NCBI GenBank assembly: GCA_009777835.1
Contig: WRKZ01000002.1
Span: forward strand, 1 to 64,000
DNA length: 64,000 bases
Reading direction: 5' to 3'
Source of the DNA: Oscillospiraceae bacterium
GTDB lineage: Bacteria; Bacillota; Clostridia; Oscillospirales; Ruminococcaceae
Shown: positions 6,605 to 57,158 of the stretch, piece after piece
Layout of the letters: the number at the start of each line of letters is the position of its first letter
Numbering within the stretch: position 1 is the stretch's first letter
Position numbers and translations under genes: made by a program
The notes under the pieces: model-generated
What the model saw: the letters and a program-made list of their open reading frames with translations, nothing else
Databases searched by the model: none
What the model was told of the DNA's origin: nothing

Positions 6605-6793
6605 TCACCGAACACGTTCCTCCCGAAACGCCTTGAAAGCTTCAATCTCATCAGTAGTCGGCTCGTCCTCCTCTATATCGTCCCACGTTTTGATTTTCAA
6701 CGAAAACGTATCCTTTGCATAAAGAAGAATTTGCATTGCTTCGTTCTCCCCTACAAAATCCAGTATACTCAATAATTGCTGTTTTGCTGTCAT
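6605..6793 (-). CDS. Small hypothetical acidic protein
   Basis: RBS GGGGAGGAG before ATG at 6793: MTAKQQLLSILDFVGENEAMQILLYAKDTFSLK...DEIEAFKAFREERVR; listed ORF start 6844 lacks an RBS. Confidence 0.6.
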   Translation of the reverse strand: MTAKQQLLSILDFVGENEAMQILLYAKDTFSLKIKTWDDIEEDEPTTDEIEAFKAFREERVR

Positions 6794-6903
6794 GATTCTC
6801 CTCCCCCTCTTTATATCACCCCCATTACTCATCAACCCCCTCAAACCTCACCCCCCACACCAAAGTGCAGGGGGTGAATGTTTACTTAGTTACGAAATGT
6901 GGA

Positions 6904-7576: not shown

Positions 7577-7750
7577 TCAGCAAATCCGTGATTGGGTTTT
7601 CTGCCATGCCAGAAACTGCTCATCTACATATGCCACATCAACCGGGTCCATAATCGACCGTTGTCGAAGAAGAGCTTCTTCCAGACCGACAACTTTAATA
7701 TCCATATTCTGATGTTTAAGCATTAGTAAATCATGGTACGATGACTTCAA
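7577..7750 (-). CDS. 57-aa small protein, family B, TTG start
   Basis: RBS AAGGAG-6 nt-TTG; MKSSYHDLLMLKHQNMDIKVVGLEEALLRQRSIMDPVDVAYVDEQFLAWQKTQSRIC*; aligns with 7975-8163 and 53611-53802 products. Absent from ORF track. Confidence 0.75.
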   Translation of the reverse strand: MKSSYHDLLMLKHQNMDIKVVGLEEALLRQRSIMDPVDVAYVDEQFLAWQKTQSRIC

Positions 7751-7764
7751 ATCAAACTCCTTGT

Positions 7765-7941
7765 TTATTCCTCTTCAGAAGCAAACGGGGTAAGAATTTT
7801 CTTGCGTTCTTCATCAGGTGTTGTTCCGTTAGCTGTTGCCAACGTAGTGTAAATGACTTTTCCTATCGCAGCATAATTTTTTTCTTCAAACAGGATTGCC
7901 AATTTTGTGTAATCTGAAACGATTTCTACTCTATTCGCCAT
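7765..7941 (-). CDS. 58-aa small hypothetical protein
   Basis: MANRVEIVSDYTKLAILFEEKNYAAIGKVIYTTLATANGTTPDEERKKILTPFASEEE*; upstream block GAGGTACAGAAAGGAATTCGATAATGGC also precedes 8163. Confidence 0.7.
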   Translation of the reverse strand: MANRVEIVSDYTKLAILFEEKNYAAIGKVIYTTLATANGTTPDEERKKILTPFASEEE

Positions 7942-7974
7942 TATCGAATTCCTTTCTGTACCTCTAAGCCCCGC

Positions 7975-8163
7975 TCAATCGTCTTCTAATTCAACCACCA
8001 GTTTTTCGACATAAGCGACTTCTTCCTGTGACATGACTGCTTTTGTCTCTTGTATAGCTTTATTCAAACCTTTGACTGTTATTCCCGCATTTTCCTGTTT
8101 GATTCTCAACAATCTGAAAAGCGAAGAGTTGGTTGAAAGTTTTATTCCGGCACTGTCAGCCAT
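7975..8163 (-). CDS. Small protein, family B
   Basis: MADSAGIKLSTNSSLFRLLRIKQENAGITVKGLNKAIQETKAVMSQEEVAYVEKLVVELEDD; start chosen from the repeated upstream block. Confidence 0.75.
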   Translation of the reverse strand: MADSAGIKLSTNSSLFRLLRIKQENAGITVKGLNKAIQETKAVMSQEEVAYVEKLVVELEDD

Positions 8164-8194
8164 TATCGAATTCATTTCTGTACCTCATGCTACT

Positions 8195-8223
8195 ATTATA
8201 TTATGCAGAATCTGTTTTGTCAA
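8195..8223 (-). promoter_or_regulatory. Consensus promoter of small-protein operon (TTGACA-N17-TATAAT)
   Basis: Plus-strand TGTCAA 8218-8223, ATTATA 8195-8200. Confidence 0.8.
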
Positions 8224-8323: not shown

Positions 8324-10939
8324 TTATTCATTTTCATCATCAGATTCGTCCGATTCGTTGTCTTCCGCTTCATCGACTTCTTCTGTTTCTTCGACTTCCT
8401 CGACCGCTTCGCCCGCTTCTTCTGCGGCGGCAGCTAAGATTTCGGCTTCGTCGGCTTGTTCGACTTCTTCGAGTTCGGCGGAATCGTCATGTTCGGTTCG
8501 GGTGAAAGTCACGACCCTGCCTTCGGGGGAGAGTTTCATCACACGAACGCCGTAACCGTATCGGCTCATCGGGCGCAGGTCGTTGGCGCGGATTCTGATA
8601 ATGACCCCGTCATCGTTGATTAGAATCACGTCGTCATCGGTATACAGTGTTCTCACACCACAGACTTTGCCTTTCTCGGGGTTCATTTTATAGTTCATTA
8701 CCCCATACCCCCCGCGATTTCTCTTGGGATAACTCGAAATCACGGTTCGTCTGCCCATTCCTTTTTCGGTGACGGTCATAATGGTGGATTCATCGTCGTA
8801 GACCTTAGTTGCACCTACGACGTAGTCGGCTTCATCGTAATCGCCGCGGAATTTGATTGCTTTTACTCCGCGGGTGACTCTTCCGGACGGTCGTATAATA
8901 GACTCATCAAAATGAATCGCCCTGCCGTTTCGTGTAGCGATAATGACCGAGCTGTCGCCTTCGGTCAGGTGAGCGGCGGCGATTTCATCGCCTTCCACCA
9001 GTGTAATCGCACGGAGTGCTTTTTTCCGTACGTTTTTGTACATAGAAAGCGGGGTACGTTTAATCAGTCCGTTTTTGGTAACACAAACAAAGAACTTGTT
9101 TTCGGCGAAGTCGGACGTTTTAAGCATGGCGGCAATCCGCTCATCGGGTTGGAGTTGCAGGAGATTGACTATATTCGTCCCCCTCGACTGTTTTGAACCC
9201 TCCGGGATTTCGTAGCCTTTAAGCCGATACATATTTCCGAGGTTTGTCACCAACAGAATCATGTCATGCGTGGACGCGATGAACATATTCTCGACAAAAT
9301 CTTCATCCCGCTGTTTCATACCGGAGACCCCTCTGCCGCCTCGCCTTTGCAGGTTATAGACTTCCACGGCTTGCCGCTTGATATACCCGATGTTGGTATA
9401 AGTCAAAACGATTTCTTCCACGGGAATCAAATCTTCGATATCGACTTCGCCGCTCACCGCTTCGATTGAGGTTCGGCGTTCGTCATTGTATTTTGAACGA
9501 ATCACGTCCAACTCATTCGAAATGACCTTGAGGATATTCTTACGGTCACTGAGAAGGGTTTGATAATCGGTGATTTTAACGTTCAATGCTGTCAATTCTT
9601 CTTCTATATCGATTCGACCGAGTTTTGTCAACTGAATAATACGCATGTTCGCAATAGCTTCCGACTGGATTTCGGTAATCCCGAATCGTTCAATCAAGCG
9701 GGATTTCGCTTGAGCGGGGTCATCGGACGAGCGGATTATGGCAATAACTTCATCAATATGATTAATTACCAGCATAAACCCTTCAAGAATGTGTGCACGC
9801 GCCTGCGCTTTCTTCAACTCGAACTGTGTGCGGCGGGTGACTACCTGTTCTTGAAACTCGATGTATTTTTCCAACATCTGTTTCAAATTAAGGATTTTCG
9901 GTTCGCCGTCAACCAGGGCGAGCATAGTCACCCCTACAGTCACCTGCAATTGGGTGAAACTGTACAGCTTACTCAAAATCACGTTTGCGTTAGCGTCCCG
10001 CTTTAACTCGACAACTATTTTCATACCGCGGCGGTCGGATTCATCCCGCAACACCGCAATTCCTTCGAGACGTTTATCCTTCATCAAATTGCCCATGTTT
10101 TCGAGCATATTTGAAAGATTCACCATATATGGGATTTCGGTTATCACGATTCGCGTATGGTTCTTTTCTTCGACAATTTCGGCTTTCCCCCGCAGAATAA
10201 TTTTGCCTTTACCGGTGTAGTAAGCCGAGCGTATTCCCGAATAGCCCATGATAATCCCCCCGGTCGGGAAGTCCGGGCCTTTCACCACCGTCATCAGCAT
10301 ATCCACCGGGATTTCCTCATCCGACAACAGCATCAACTGAAGTGCGTCAATCATCTCGCCAAGATTATGCGGCGGAATGTTCGTCGCCATACCCACCGCG
10401 ATTCCCGTTGAACCGTTCACCAACAAATTCGGGAAACGAGACGGTAATACCGACGGCTCGGTGCTCCGGTCATCATAGTTAGGCACGAAATCAACCGTGT
10501 CTTTGTTTATATCCGAGAGCATTTCGGAAGAAATCCGCGCCAACCGCGACTCGGTATAACGCATATGCGCGGGCGAATCCCCGCCGATTGAACCGAAGTT
10601 TCCGTGACCCTCGATTAAAGGATACCGCAACGAAAAATCCTGCGCCATACGAACAAGTGCATCATAAACGCTCTGGTCTCCGTGCGGGTGGTAAGATTTC
10701 AGCACTGCACCCACCGTAGCCGCGCATTTACTGAACGGCTTGTCGTGGGTCAACCCCTCTTCCAACTGGGCATAGAGAATCCGGCGATGAACAGGCTTCA
10801 ACCCATCGCGAACGTCCGGCAATGCACGAGAAACTATAACCGACATCGAGTATTCGAGGAATGAGCGTTTCATCTCATGCTCAATATCGACCTCCAGAAG
10901 GTTCTCATTCTCATGTAGTTTTGCTCTTTCAAGTTCCAT
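8324..10939 (-). CDS. gyrA: DNA gyrase subunit A
   Basis: [52 protein letters not shown]; acidic C-terminal tail; start at 10939 or upstream TTG 10969. Confidence 0.95.
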
Positions 10940-11113
10940 ATTTTTATGACCATGCCACCCCCTGCACAAATCCCGACAGAGATTGCAACAGGACGGTCAG
11001 CCCTTTCTTCGGATAGAAATCCATAATCTAATTCAGTATATCATAAATCAAAGGAAATGTAAACCATTATAATATAGAAAAATCAGATTTTAAAAATATT
11101 ATTACTCCGCTTG

Positions 11114-46493: not shown

Positions 46494-46682
46494 ATGGCTA
46501 ATACACCGGAGATTCGTGATACGAAGAAAACCTGTTTGTCTGTACTTGTTGCATTAAAAAGAACAGGTGGAACCATTGATGATGCAATTTCACAGATGAA
46601 AGCATCTATGGAGAGAGCAGACGCACTTGAGGTTTTCGAGTCGTTCAAAGAAGACGATGGGCTTTTGGTCAAACCAAAGTAG
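46494..46682 (+). CDS. Small protein, family A (EIRDTKK type)
   Basis: RBS AAAGGAGGTGAG; MANTPEIRDTKKTCLSVLVALKRTGGTIDDAISQMKASMERADALEVFESFKEDDGLLVKPK. Confidence 0.8.
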   Translation: MANTPEIRDTKKTCLSVLVALKRTGGTIDDAISQMKASMERADALEVFESFKEDDGLLVKPK

Positions 46683-46696
46683 AGGAGGTGAGCGGT

Positions 46697-46891
46697 ATGG
46701 CGTATGATACGAAAGTGCTGTTGTCTCAGATTGCACAAAACGTTTTGAAGTCTGTTACCCTCGAGGAAGCGTATATGTCGGTGGTAGAATCGGCTAATGT
46801 TGAAGGTCTTCAGTTGGCAAATTATAATGAAGCAAAGAAACATCTTCAGGAGTTGCGTTCGCGCTCGGAGGCGGCAGGGTCAGAATCATGA
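46697..46891 (+). CDS. Small hypothetical protein overlapping mfd start
   Basis: RBS GAGGAGGTGAG; MAYDTKVLLSQIAQNVLKSVTLEEAYMSVVESANVEGLQL.... Confidence 0.75.
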   Translation: MAYDTKVLLSQIAQNVLKSVTLEEAYMSVVESANVEGLQLANYNEAKKHLQELRSRSEAAGSES

Positions 46892-49800: not shown

Positions 49801-50421
49801 GAAACCTATGTTCGATTACTGGAAGAAGCGGTGAAGTCGGTTGACGGCGGCAGGTCTTCGTCGGACGGTGAAGAATCGCCGAGCGAGGTTGTGTCACAAT
49901 GTGTCGTAGATGTAAAAGCCGACGCTTTTATTCCCGACGGGTATATATCGAATCAGTCGGGAAGAATCGCCTGTTATAAAAAAATTGCCGAAATCCGCGA
50001 TGAAGATGATGCAAAAGATGTCGTTTCGGAATTAACCGACAGATACGGTAAAATTCCCAAACCTGTGACCGGGTTGATTCAAGCGGCGCGGATTCGTAAC
50101 TTGGGCGGGCGTTGCGGAATCAGCGAAGTCAGCCAGAATAAAAACGGGGTGGTGTTCCATTGGCGGCAGAATGTAGCGGAAGAATCATCGGAATCACAAT
50201 CGGCAAAGATGGAAGGGCTTTCGTATTGGGAACGTCGTAGACTGGAGAAGGGCAATCAAGCGGGGCTTCCTGTGGAGAAGTTGTCGAAACTGCCGCAGAA
50301 ACTGTTCTCTAAAATGGAATTGAATTTGACCGAACGCCCCGGGGTCACGTTAAAATTGACCGAAAAAGACGATGTCCTCGATATAGTGACGGGTTTTCTT
50401 GAGAATTTAGTTGACAATTAG
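46888..50421 (+). CDS. mfd: Transcription-repair coupling factor
   Basis: GDYIVHDNYGIGIFEGVTKL, LLCGDVGFGKTEVALRGAFK, TPIPRTLNMAMSGIRDMSVIETPP. Confidence 0.97.
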   Translation: MKYFNSAANLIPQYNEYKECVRNPGIISISGLSRIHKAHFIAATTEETSESLLVLVDSESEAERLCADVNTLCNNSCAYVYPAKDSDLFIAEAASGEYVHRRLSVLYSLTRKIPTEFSSQSEQGLSFGTSVIVATPEAAAQLTISPKKLTESIIRIEKDGEFKSEEVFSRLIEGGYSRVDMVESVSQFSVRGSIIDIFPVNSELPVRVDLWGDTVDSLALFDVESQRSVSKIEVVHISPSCEQLEDSTATLFDYVQKVIVCEQNACNEQFRSAYEQFKEDLALAAEQGNVSGGKFMLSKAEYNALAEEKTFAYFDAFARKGREFTQVAVTQLPPWNGEYNQLCRDLKAYMKSGYSVIIFAGTEKSARELANDLRDDDFVADYAVNPERAYGRHIFVTAGTLSAGYDYSEAKCACITLFGNRNSETVVRGITGGTSPVSAAKKPKRKSKAEAIRAISEINVGDYIVHDNYGIGIFEGVTKLTNDGISKDYIKLRYAGKDALYLPVTQLDFIARYIGNTSSANLKLSKLHTDTWFKTKAKVKRAVAELAQELVELYSVRMKAKGHSFGKDTPEQLEFESRFSYVETDDQLTCIEELKSDMQSPRPMDRLLCGDVGFGKTEVALRGAFKCVMEGKQCALLCPTTVLAWQHYQTAIQRFGLTEGVSSRQSLQKRNDNAGLVNVELLSRFRTPKQQKEILQKLESGVIDFIIGTHTLVGKNVKFKNLGLVIIDEEQRFGVMQKERLKVSFEGVDTLTLSATPIPRTLNMAMSGIRDMSVIETPPHDRLPVTTYVIEHDYGVISAAINKELRRAGQVYYIHNRVETIMSAAAKLQGLLPDARIGIAHGKMDEKSLLEVWRQLLERQIDILVCTTLIETGVDVPNVNTLIIENADRMGLAQLHQLRGRVGRTNRRAFAYFTFNRGKVLTEIAEKRLKAVREFTQFGAGFKIALRDLEIRGAGSVLGESQSGHLSSVGYETYVRLLEEAVKSVDGGRSSSDGEESPSEVVSQCVVDVKADAFIPDGYISNQSGRIACYKKIAEIRDEDDAKDVVSELTDRYGKIPKPVTGLIQAARIRNLGGRCGISEVSQNKNGVVFHWRQNVAEESSESQSAKMEGLSYWERRRLEKGNQAGLPVEKLSKLPQKLFSKMELNLTERPGVTLKLTEKDDVLDIVTGFLENLVDN
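47210..47277 (+). repeat. Palindromic repeat family B inside mfd
   Basis: CTTTAACCCGGAAAATTCCtacGGAATTTTCTTCGCAGAGCGAGCAAGGTTTGTCCTTTGGCACTTC; matches nadB copy 24716-24810. Confidence 0.8.
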
Positions 50422-50488
50422 CGTTTCAAAGGGTATAATGAGCAGTAGGGAAATATAGTATGGAAATAAGAAAGGTATGGTTATAATC

Positions 50489-50710
50489 ATGGTTAGAAGA
50501 AAAGAAACGGAAATTTTAGACTTTGAGGGTTTGCAGGGAGCTTCGGCACCTGAGAGCGTGACTGTCAGGAATATAGATGAACTGTATGCAAAACTGGAGA
50601 AGTCTGAGAGGAATGTTGCAGCCGGTAAAACGATTCCCGCTGAAGTTTTGTTTGAAAAGGTGAGGAAACGGTATGGCTACCGCGGTGTCAAGATGAGAAA
50701 CTTTTTTTAA
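50489..50710 (+). CDS. RelB/antitoxin-like protein
   Basis: NIDELYAKLEKSERNVAAGKTIPAEVLFEKVRKRYG. Confidence 0.6.
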   Translation: MVRRKETEILDFEGLQGASAPESVTVRNIDELYAKLEKSERNVAAGKTIPAEVLFEKVRKRYGYRGVKMRNFF

Positions 50711-53423: not shown

Positions 53424-53606
53424 ATGGCTAATTCATCTGAAATAAGAGATACGAAAAAGTCAAACTTATCGTGTCTGTATGCGGTAAAAGTACTCGGCGG
53501 GGATATAGATATGGCAATCGTCCAGGCAAGGGCGGCGATGGATAAATCCGATGTCGAGGACGTGGAAAAAGAGTATGAAGAGTTTCTGAAAAAGGGGGAT
53601 AAGTGA
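53424..53606 (+). CDS. Small protein, family A
   Basis: MANSSEIRDTKKSNLSCLYAVKVLGGDIDMAIVQARAAMDKSDVEDVEKEYEEFLKKGDK; paralog of 46494. Confidence 0.8.
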   Translation: MANSSEIRDTKKSNLSCLYAVKVLGGDIDMAIVQARAAMDKSDVEDVEKEYEEFLKKGDK

Positions 53607-53610
53607 GATT

Positions 53611-53802
53611 ATGGCATTAGCAATCGAAGTCAAAGAAAGGCAGAAACATTTGCTCGGTATTCTGTTGAACGTAAAGAAAGCGAATCCGGGGATAACCGTA
53701 ATCGGATTGCAAAAGCAAATCGAAGACGCTGTTATCGTCATGGAACCGGAAGATGTGGCTTTAGTCGAGAAAATCGTCGGAGTCAAAGCATTAGAAGAGT
53801 GA
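53611..53802 (+). CDS. Small protein, family B
   Basis: MALAIEVKERQKHLLGILLNVKKANPGITVIGLQKQIEDAVIVMEPEDVALVEKIVGVKALEE. Confidence 0.8.
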   Translation: MALAIEVKERQKHLLGILLNVKKANPGITVIGLQKQIEDAVIVMEPEDVALVEKIVGVKALEE

Positions 53803-53840: not shown

Positions 53841-54026
53841 TTGGGAATCGAAGTCAAAGAAAGACAAAAGCACCACCTTAAAGGGCTTTTGAACATCAGA
53901 AAAGACAATCCCGGACTTCATATAGTCGGGTTAGACAGACAAATCGAAGACGCTGTTATCGTCATGGAACCGGAAGATGTGGCTTTAGTCGAGAAAATCG
54001 TCGGGATTAAAGCATTAGAAGAGTGA
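53841..54026 (+). CDS. Small protein, family B, tandem duplicate with altered start codon (ACG 53835 / TTG 53841)
   Basis: LGIEVKERQKHHLKGLLNIRKDNPGLHIVGLDRQIEDAVIVMEPEDVALVEKIVGIKALEE. Confidence 0.7.
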   Translation: MGIEVKERQKHHLKGLLNIRKDNPGLHIVGLDRQIEDAVIVMEPEDVALVEKIVGIKALEE

Positions 54027-54108: not shown

Positions 54109-55926
54109 GTGAATTTTCTTGAATCTTACGATGTTATAGTAATCGGTGCGGGCCACGCGGGTTGTGAAGCGGGGCTCGCTTCGGCACGCTTGGGGTGCAG
54201 GACTGCCGTGTTCTGTCTTTCGCCCGATACAATCGCGAATCTTCCTTGCAATCCCTGCATAGGCGGTTCCGCTAAAGGACAGATTGTCAGTGAAATCGAC
54301 GCGCTCGGCGGAGAAATGGGCAAGGCGGCGGATTTTGCTACGTTGCAGTCGCGTATGCTTAATCGGGGGAAGGGGGCGGCGGTACATTCGTTGAGGGTGC
54401 AATGTGACCGAGTCGGGTATGGGCTTTATATGAAGCGGGTTCTCGAAGACCGGGAGAATCTGTTCATAAAACAGGGCGAAGTTACGGAAATTCTTGTGGT
54501 TGCAGGCGAAGTCGTAGGGGTTCGTACAAGAATCGGTGCGTTTTACGGAGCGAAGGCGGTCATTATTGCAACGGGAACGTATCTCGGCGGGAAAATCCAT
54601 GTGGGGGAATCAAGCTATGACGGAGCGGCAGACGGACTCGCCCCTGCAATGTTCTTGAGTGATTCGTTGGCGAAAATCGGGATTAAGACCCGACGGTTCA
54701 AGACAGGGACTCCTGCAAGGGTGCATAAGCGTTCGGTGGATTTTTCGCAGCTTGCCGAACAGCACGGTGATGAGTCGCCGTTCCCTTTCAGTTTTACCGC
54801 AGAGAAAATCCCCGAGAACAAGGTGGTGTGTCACATTACATACACGAATGAGCGAACGCATGAGCTTATTCGTGCGAATCTGCATCGTTCGCCGATGTAT
54901 TCGGGACGAATCAAGGCTACCGGTGCGCGCTACTGTCCGAGTATCGAGGATAAAATCGTGAAGTTCGCCGATAAAGACCGACATCAGCTTTTTATCGAGC
55001 CTATGGGTTTGAATACGTCGGAATATTATCTCCAGGGGTTGTCAAGTTCTCTGCCGGAGGAGGTTCAAACCGAGTTGGTTCGGACAATTCCGGGGTTGGA
55101 AAACGCTGAAATCATTCGCCCTGCGTACGCAATCGAATATGATTGCTGTGACCCGACCGAGCTGTTCCCGACGTTGGAATTTAAGGCGATTCGCGGATTA
55201 TACGGGGCGGGGCAGTTCAACGGGACTTCGGGTTATGAAGAGGCGGCGGCACAAGGTCTTGTGGCGGGGGTCAATGCCGCCAACAAGATTCTTGGCAGGG
55301 AAGAATATGTTCCACGTAGAACATCTTCCTATATAGGGGTGATGATTGACGATTTAGTCACAAAGGGTTGTGACGAACCCTATCGAATGTTAACATCTCG
55401 TGCCGAGCATCGGCTTTCGATTCGTCAAGACAATGCCGAGGAACGTCTGTGCGAGACCGGGTATGAGCTTCGGCTTTTGGAAAAGGAACGTTATGCCGTG
55501 TGGGAGGAAAATTCGGCGGTGATTAGTCGGGAAATGGCGCGGCTGAAGTCGGTAACGGTGAAACCGTCGGAGTTTCCGTCGCTGAAACAAGCGGTGAAGT
55601 TGTATGACTTTCTCAAGCGACCGGAAGTGGATTATGCAGAGTTTGCGCCGTCGGATTTTTCGCCCGGTCTTGTGCGGAAAATCGACATTGCGGTGAAGTA
55701 TGAGGGGTATATTAAAGCGAGTGCCGAGAAGATACGTTCGGCAGACGAGCTGGAGTCAAAGAGGTTGCCGACGGATTTTGATTATTCGCTTGTTTCGGGG
55801 TTGCGGTTGGAGGCGCGGGAAAAGCTGAACCTTCATAAGCCGTTGAATCTGGGTCAGGCGAGCCGTATTCCGGGTGTTAATCCTGCCGATGTGACGGTTT
55901 TGCTGATTTGGCTTTCGGGAAAATAA
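54109..55926 (+). CDS. mnmG: tRNA uridine-5-carboxymethylaminomethyl modification enzyme MnmG
   Basis: [78 protein letters not shown]. Confidence 0.97.
55308..55323. promoter_or_regulatory. parS-like site TGTTCCACGTAGAACA within mnmG
   Basis: Identical to 34824-34839. Confidence 0.8.
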
Positions 55927-55988: not shown

Positions 55989-57158
55989 TTACAGCCCCCT
56001 GAACATTACGTCGTCGATAAAGATATAATTATCGAGTTGGGCAGGCGGATATGCCCTGATGTTGATTATTGCCGCGACTGCATCAAACGGGGCGGGGCCG
56101 AAGACTTTTCTGTAATAACCGAAAGAATCTTGCGGTATACTGCCGGATTCTATAACGATGTCTCCTGCCACAACTTCCGAGCCGTCTTCACGTCGGAAGT
56201 ATACAATCACTCTCAAAAGTGAGTCGGGATTGTTGGCTTTTGCATAGAACGACAGTTCGTACAGGCAATCCGGATTTATGTCTACGACTTGCAGTAGACT
56301 GCTGGTGTTCTTCATTCCCGCTGAGTATCTGCCGGTATGCACGTTTTCCCGGTCGCTGATTTGATACACCGTATAAATCGGGGAAGCACCGCTGCCGACT
56401 TCCCAGCCGACGGGGGTCTGCCCGAAGATGGGATTGTTAACGAATTCTTCCATTTCGCCGTTAATCAGCAGGTCTCCCGTCGGCTGACACAGGCAGTCAC
56501 ATTCTCCCGGAGGGCCGGTCGGACCGGGAGGCCCGGTTTCACCGCGCTCACCATCTTCCCCCGGGGGACCGGTCGGGCCGCGTTCACCATCTTCGCCGGG
56601 AGGGCCTTGTTCACCCTGGAATCCCCGCGGGCCGCGTTCGCCTTGCTCGCCGCGCTCGCCACGTTCACCATCTTGTCCGGGAGGGCCTTGCTCACCCGGG
56701 AATCCTCTTGGGCCGCGTTCTCCCTGTTCGCCTTGTTCGCCGCGTTCGCCTTGTTCTCCTCGTTCACCGCGCTCACCACGTTCGCCCGGTTCACCCGGAA
56801 TTCCTTGCTCACCCGGGAATCCCCTCGGCCCGCGTTCGCCTTGCTCGCCGCGCTCGCCACGTTCACCGTCTTCCCCCGGAGGGCCTTGTTCACCCTGGAA
56901 TCCTTTTGGGCCGCGTTCGCCCTGTTCGCCGCGTTCACCGCGTTCGCCGGGTTCACCCGGAGGGCCTTGTTTTCCTCTGAGACCTTGCGGGCCTTGTTCA
57001 CCCCGTTCGCCTTTTTCACCGGGTTCGCCGGGCTCGCCTTGTTCTCCCTGCGGCCCGTGAGGGCCTTGTTTTCCCGGTTTTCCGGGTTTTCCCGGCGGGC
57101 CGGGAGGCCCTTGACAGCAACAACGACATTTTCCGCAGTTGCAATGACTACTGTTCAT
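55989..57158 (-). CDS. Collagen-like (GXY repeat) protein with Cys-rich N-terminus and C-terminal beta-rich domain
   Basis: [29 protein letters not shown]...; ~60 GXY triplets; C-terminal [10 protein letters not shown]...IFIDDVMF. Confidence 0.92.

Follow-up and report, generated by a model that had tools for sequence, protein, structure and literature searches.

Two orphan families of small proteins, f1 and f2, at housekeeping gene junctions in Oscillospiraceae

On the minus strand between positions 7577 and 8223 of a contig from an Oscillospiraceae bacterium, three very short open reading frames (ORFs) follow a perfect promoter, which raises the question of whether they are genes at all, whether they belong to one family, and what their products might do. 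We address it here for the window, meaning the whole stretch of 64,000 nucleotides that was analysed, and for related genomes.

The array and its translation starts

The three ORFs lie as the first-pass annotation had described them, except that the start of ORF 1 is probably at 8175 and not at 8163; the promoter that it had reported is exact, and the upstream block common to ORFs 1 and 2 is likewise present:

8195..8223, minus strand: exact sigma-A consensus promoter, TTGACA-N17-TATAAT, with 0.06 chance sites expected per window
8159..8186, minus strand: 28-nt leader block, copy 1 (GAGGTACAGAAATGAATTCGATAATGGC), ahead of ORF 1
7975..8175, minus strand: ORF 1 (p1), family f1, 66 residues from the most likely start, ATG 8175 (62 residues from ATG 8163)
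7937..7964, minus strand: 28-nt leader block, copy 2, ahead of ORF 2, with AAAGGA instead of AAATGA
7765..7941, minus strand: ORF 2 (p2), family f2, 58 residues
7577..7750, minus strand: ORF 3 (p3), family f1, subfamily C, TTG start, 57 residues

The array has its own promoter, from which the transcript is predicted to start at about 8188, leaving a very short leader; exact promoters with spacings of 15-19 nt number four in the window, compared with 0.06 expected from shuffles. The 28-nt block GAGGTACAGAAAKGAATTCGATAATGGC occurs exactly twice in the window and in none of the shuffled sequences, the copies being located at ORF 1 and ORF 2 with no third across the 1.74-Mb genome, and this confinement to two copies marks it as a local duplication. 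In the ORF 2 copy, the AAAGGA site lies 8 nt 5' of the ORF 2 ATG, while in the ORF 1 copy the sequence AAATGA abolishes this site and yields the ATG at 8175. Since GAGGT stands 6 nt 5' of that ATG but some 18 nt from ATG 8163, translation of ORF 1 most likely begins at 8175. The TTG start of ORF 3 is preceded by AAGGAG at 6 nt; its N-terminus is shorter than in homologues, one of which, on contig C85, has an upstream ATG that is absent from ORF 3. A single transcript likely spans ORFs 1, 2 and 3, initiated at the 8223-8195 promoter, with each ORF presumably translated from its own ribosome-binding site.

Other small or repetitive genes were noted in the window. Another exact consensus promoter (region 50411-50710) precedes a 77-residue ORF (50477-50710) that sits between mfd-like and XpaC/TelA-like genes and matches no Pfam family above cut-off. 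A small acidic ORF at 6605-6844 (...TWDDIEEDEPTTDEIEAFKAFREERVR) resembles an orphan antitoxin-type protein, and a 389-residue protein encoded at 55989-57158 carries long collagen-like GPP/GEQG repeats.

Two families of small, predicted helical proteins

ORFs 1 and 3 truly belong to f1, a hitherto undescribed family of acidic three-helix proteins of about 60 residues that is present in many copies. The motif that the first-pass annotation had seen in both ORFs and in the proteins at 53.6-54.0 kb reflects true homology: the protein at 53611, used as a single query, matches ORF 1 (E=5.5e-7) as well as copies on contigs C24, C1 and C85. A family profile of 31 sequences returns ORF 1 at E=5.1e-24 and ORF 3 at E=4.3e-19, although both are in its seed alignment and the single-sequence match, together with independent paralogues, is the cleaner evidence. 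Membership was defined by a full profile match over about 60 residues and a helix-3 cap, M-x-x-[E/D]-[D/E]-V, both of which are found in ORFs 1 and 3 and not in ORF 2. The 31-sequence profile finds 13 copies in the organism's own genome and a 63-sequence profile finds 14, six in the window and eight elsewhere. Besides ORFs 1 and 3, the window holds the following members, of which the first, second and fourth had previously been counted in part or not at all:

46494..46682, plus strand: f1 member, subfamily E, 63-sequence profile E=3e-14, just 5' of an mfd-like gene of 1177 residues at 46888
53424..53606, plus strand: f1 member q0, subfamily E, 31-sequence profile E=6.8e-16, directly 3' of a TelA-like gene
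53611..53802, plus strand: f1 member q1, subfamily B, 31-sequence profile E=9.8e-25
53841..54026, plus strand: f1 member q2, subfamily B, 31-sequence profile E=7.2e-23

At the position of the q1 ATG start, q2 has ACG (GAGATTACGGCATTG vs GAGATTATGGCATTA), so that q2 either begins at a TTG two codons on or has lost normal initiation; the q1/q2 dN/dS of 0.19 indicates that constraint persists despite the altered start. Across all loci we collected about 85 distinct f1 copies from 18 genomes, and because all of these sequences come from metagenome bins, copy numbers and junctions hinge on assembly. Sorted by eye, the copies form roughly five subfamilies, one with the pattern MASSxEIR..QK..L..LLKLKK..[V.GL].LI...KA.MEAEDVAYVEKMIAEL and others with the N-termini MPTNKNADLK..., MAQxDTRH.EK... 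and MANxxEIRDTKK....

The codon-level conservation on which the first-pass annotation had staked its proposal is strong. Of 3443 pairs in the f1 codon alignment, 99.4% diverge more at silent than at replacement sites, and where dS could be measured most close pairs have a dN/dS of 0.04-0.2, one tandem pair in genome G020 being an exception (0.83). ORF 1 and its 65% identical paralogue on contig C1 (pN 0.19, pS 0.86) differ by 12, 15 and 31 changes at codon positions 1, 2 and 3, and ORF 3 differs from its C85 homologue by 19, 15 and 36. Members of f1 are thus under strong purifying selection, and the excess of third-position and silent-site changes means that the ORFs encode proteins. That they are instead chance frames held open because a repeat is conserved at the RNA or DNA level, as their shortness and the repeated 28-nt leader might suggest, is contradicted by this clustering of changes and by the ribosome-binding sites of most copies (71 of 85 carry a G-rich Shine-Dalgarno-like sequence), and we consider it highly improbable.

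AlphaFold2, run with the family alignment, confidently predicts a three-helix bundle for ORF 1 (residues 4-28, 37-46 and 50-64; mean pLDDT 88.1, pTM 0.73), in which the near-invariant residues I41, M48, D52 and V56 (ORF 1 numbering) would fit a buried core and helix cap. The family is acidic, with a median pI of 5.3 and a charge of -2.3. A match to a known family would have spoken against novelty, and the Pfam, NCBIfam, PHROGs and PDB profile libraries give none above curated cut-off; Pfam returns zero matches for 31 f1 members even at E=1, Foldseek searches of the model against the PDB and a viral library return nothing at E <= 0.001, and the f1 motif strings were not found in the literature searched. 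The only PADLOC match, of one of the 31 members to a Type II methyltransferase model (E=4e-4), is regarded as spurious. Weak, non-significant profile and fold matches prompted a comparison with uL29, which is of similar length and also helical; homology found no support, with an hhalign probability of 0.2% over five aligned columns against a two-sequence uL29 alignment. The ribosomal protein is basic and present in a single copy per genome. Spo0E-like phosphatases (PF09388) are small helical proteins with several copies in Firmicutes, and they are among the Pfam families that none of the 31 members matches at E=1. Closer in kind are the lineage-specific small-protein families of the GMSC catalogue (2024, PMC11364881), which share with f1 a length of <100 codons, the lack of a Pfam or CDD domain and a narrow taxon range; f1 differs from them in its large paralogue set per genome, its positions at housekeeping junctions and its near-perfect promoters.

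ORF 2 founds a second undescribed family of helical small proteins, f2. The earlier proposal of one new small-protein family therefore stands as regards novelty for ORFs 1 and 3 and falls as regards a single family, because ORF 2 belongs to a different one; homology between f1 and f2 found no support (hhalign probability 0.2%, no detectable relation). ORF 2 has relatives within the genus (E=6e-9 and 2.7e-7) and carries the f2 profile pattern MNR-[IVL]-E-[IV]-x-x-[FY]-x-x-[LM] ... L-x-x-A. Its AlphaFold2 model likewise consists of three helices (2-19, 23-38, 42-55; pLDDT 86.6) and matches no solved fold at E <= 0.001, and neither scans of f2 against Pfam nor a scan of ORF 2 against NCBIfam gave a match above curated cut-off. 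Among genomes of the genus, f2 is found in 10 of 14 that bear f1 and in 0 of 57 that are free of it (Fisher p=2e-9, the genomes not being independent), a co-occurrence that may be partly or wholly due to common clade history. Like f1, f2 genes occupy housekeeping junctions, for instance infB-rbfA, and they sometimes adjoin f1, as in the array described here and in the contig C1 array epimerase-f2-f1-SDR, where stop and start codons overlap. In genome G003 (L108, 10188-10745), two small ORFs of 73 and 46 residues flank an f1 gene 5' of an SDR gene and could possibly represent a third family or distant f2.

Genomic positions, expression signals and distribution

Copies of f1 stand alone or in short tandem arrays at gene junctions, next to unrelated housekeeping genes, among them (names assigned from sequence) gyrA, mnmG, fliH/fliI, dnaK, lepA, carB and rsmI. 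They share the orientation of the upstream gene in 63 of 77 cases and are found more often at operon ends than at operon starts (18 vs 6). The fliH-fliI junction is occupied in genomes G047 and G012, where the f1 stop overlaps the fliI start, and empty in the organism's own genome and many relatives, where fliH and fliI abut or overlap; occupancy in two related genomes and emptiness in the others argue that f1 spreads as gene-sized units. At this junction the flanking genes of G047 and G012 are about 85% identical and the f1 genes only about 65-70%, so that the resident copy has been replaced, inserted twice, or has evolved faster. The nearest relative lies in the same genome for 22 of 83 copies, and for 19 of these 22 at an unlinked place; label shuffling, repeated 2000 times, gives 6.5 such copies and never more than 18. 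In the youngest unlinked pair, from genome G046, the two copies are similar over a stretch that begins close to the ribosome-binding site and ends some 15 nt beyond the stop. We conclude that f1 genes are duplicated and moved, each as a unit the size of a gene, into junctions between housekeeping genes.

No terminal repeats or common target motif were seen among the f1 copies, and flanks of paralogues have no extended sequence in common. Leader duplication, clear in single cases such as ORF 1/ORF 2 and the contig C1 array, was rejected as a general mark of insertion, as it does not exceed controls (p=0.10-0.18). Of the features that define transposable elements, namely terminal repeats, target-site duplication and a mobility enzyme, none was seen in f1. 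As a separate observation on synteny, gyrA lies directly 5' of mnmG in several relatives and the order in G047 is gyrA-f1-mnmG, while in our window gyrA and mnmG (8324-10969 and 54109-55926) are separated by 43 kb and run in opposite directions, each bordering an f1 array. This layout suggests that the genome was rearranged at a junction occupied by f1, and the adjacency in relatives hints that the segment from 8 to 54 kb, between both arrays, may have been inverted.

Expression signals accompany many of these genes. An exact 12/12 promoter lies within 110 nt of the f1 start in 17 of 83 copies vs 26 of 679 control genes (p=3.7e-7), and for non-operonic copies in 14 of 46 (30%) vs 22 of 396 (5.6%, p=1.8e-6); the controls are other genes of the same loci, and their start sites were set by a simple rule, which makes the contrast approximate. 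Two recurring upstream sequences were noted as well. In G047 and G012 (L137, L138, L082, L187), GTGAAGAAAGGACNTNNTGAAAA is dispersed ahead of f1, f2 and unrelated genes and reads as a putative repeated ribosome-binding leader. In G046, f1 genes of different subfamilies have in common a promoter module (CACTTGACAAGC..AAATAATCGCTGTATAATAATAG), which is repeated nearby, at the following sites:

L129, 6637-6653 and 7375-7391: G046 promoter module
L132, 3116-3132 and 3331-3347: G046 promoter module

The distribution of f1 is narrow. It was found in 14 of 71 genomes of the genus, 3 of 149 sampled genomes of the family and 4 of 394 genomes of the order, each count including the organism's own genome, and in 1 of 399 genomes of the phylum, which is that same genome; viral contigs, phages and plasmids gave none, the phage and plasmid searches being run with a single member. 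Each of the 18 named f1 loci comes from a metagenome-assembled genome, 17 from Oscillospiraceae and one from Defluviitaleaceae. The sample codes Emb289 and Lab288 denote the higher termites Embiratermes neotenicus and Labiotermes labralis, and Nt197 and Th196 denote Neocapritermes taracua and Termes hospes (PMC7024585). As far as tested, f1 is limited to a few Clostridia lineages, and on the basis of these four codes, with Pal332 (5 of the 18 loci) being a code of unconfirmed origin, the named carriers come from termite guts.

A proposed role and its rivals

Copies of f1 that have settled at junctions either retain a constitutive promoter close to perfect or are carried along by the host operon. 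In the explanation we favour, their products would be soluble, constitutive, non-enzymatic protein-binding modules of adaptor or regulator type, with f2 as a possible partner. Taken as a whole, including dispersal and the protein-binding role, this explanation has in our judgement about an even chance of being right; for the functional step by itself, which draws on the predicted fold, the absence of catalytic residues and the expression signals, the chance is one half at best. The conserved positions of f1 lie in the structural core and in the helix-3 cap (M-[E/D/S]-x-[E]-[D/E]-[V/I]), and it is the loops and outer faces that vary between paralogues, as expected if the copies bind different partners or one partner with different strength. 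The conserved residues look structural in the model, and any binding face is thus only putative. Because the neighbouring genes are so diverse, an f1 copy is argued not to act on the product of the adjoining gene, and gene-specific partners were set aside on the same ground.

Three other readings share some of this evidence. The many copies at unrelated junctions that are empty in relatives, their gene-sized boundaries, the nearest relatives within the same genome and the narrow, patchy distribution reaching one Defluviitaleaceae genome would also suit a selfish element whose own mobility explains the junctions and whose protein or RNA works for its propagation and not for the cell. Such an element lacks terminal repeats or a common target motif, its leader duplication is not general, and no recombinase-like motif is found in its 60 residues; moreover, insertions that respect starts and stops are also explained by selection against damage, and plain duplication with selection is enough. 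We hold this reading unlikely, and equally so the related proposal of a self-spreading single-gene unit of about 60 residues, expressed intact and without a known mobility enzyme, that would bring a near-perfect promoter or couple to a host operon and would have crossed Clostridia lineages within the termite gut.

No better placed is the possibility that f1 and f2 serve as immunity proteins, antitoxin-like proteins or decoys against phage, with diversity kept by an arms race. Multi-copy, diversified and patchy families whose two small genes often stand together would fit it, but no toxin-like partner recurs beside f1 copies, the lone PADLOC match is taken as spurious, relatives in phages, plasmids or viral contigs were not found, and close copies are under purifying, not diversifying, selection. 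Alpha/beta-type small acid-soluble spore proteins have about 60-70 residues and several dispersed genes per clostridial genome, and the copy number, size and strong promoters of f1 recall abundant structural or nucleoid-type proteins of this kind with one bulk role. This seems slightly less probable still, given that f1 is net acidic, shows no sequence match to these proteins, leaves the spore-protein families of Pfam and NCBIfam unmatched, and shows, in place of sporulation control, sigma-A promoters of the vegetative type and positions in operons.

The standing of f1 and f2 as new orphan families with an unusual genomic habit is well supported, and while orphan small proteins are common, it is this habit that sets f1 apart. 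In a compact 1.74-Mb genome, 14 constrained copies under unusually perfect promoters would not be expected as an idle cost. The confinement of f2 to f1-bearing genomes suggests a partnership. Among named genomes f1 is limited to termite-gut carriers, which points to a role tied to that habitat. The f1 paralogues and their empty sites offer natural material on the birth, movement and retention of small genes.
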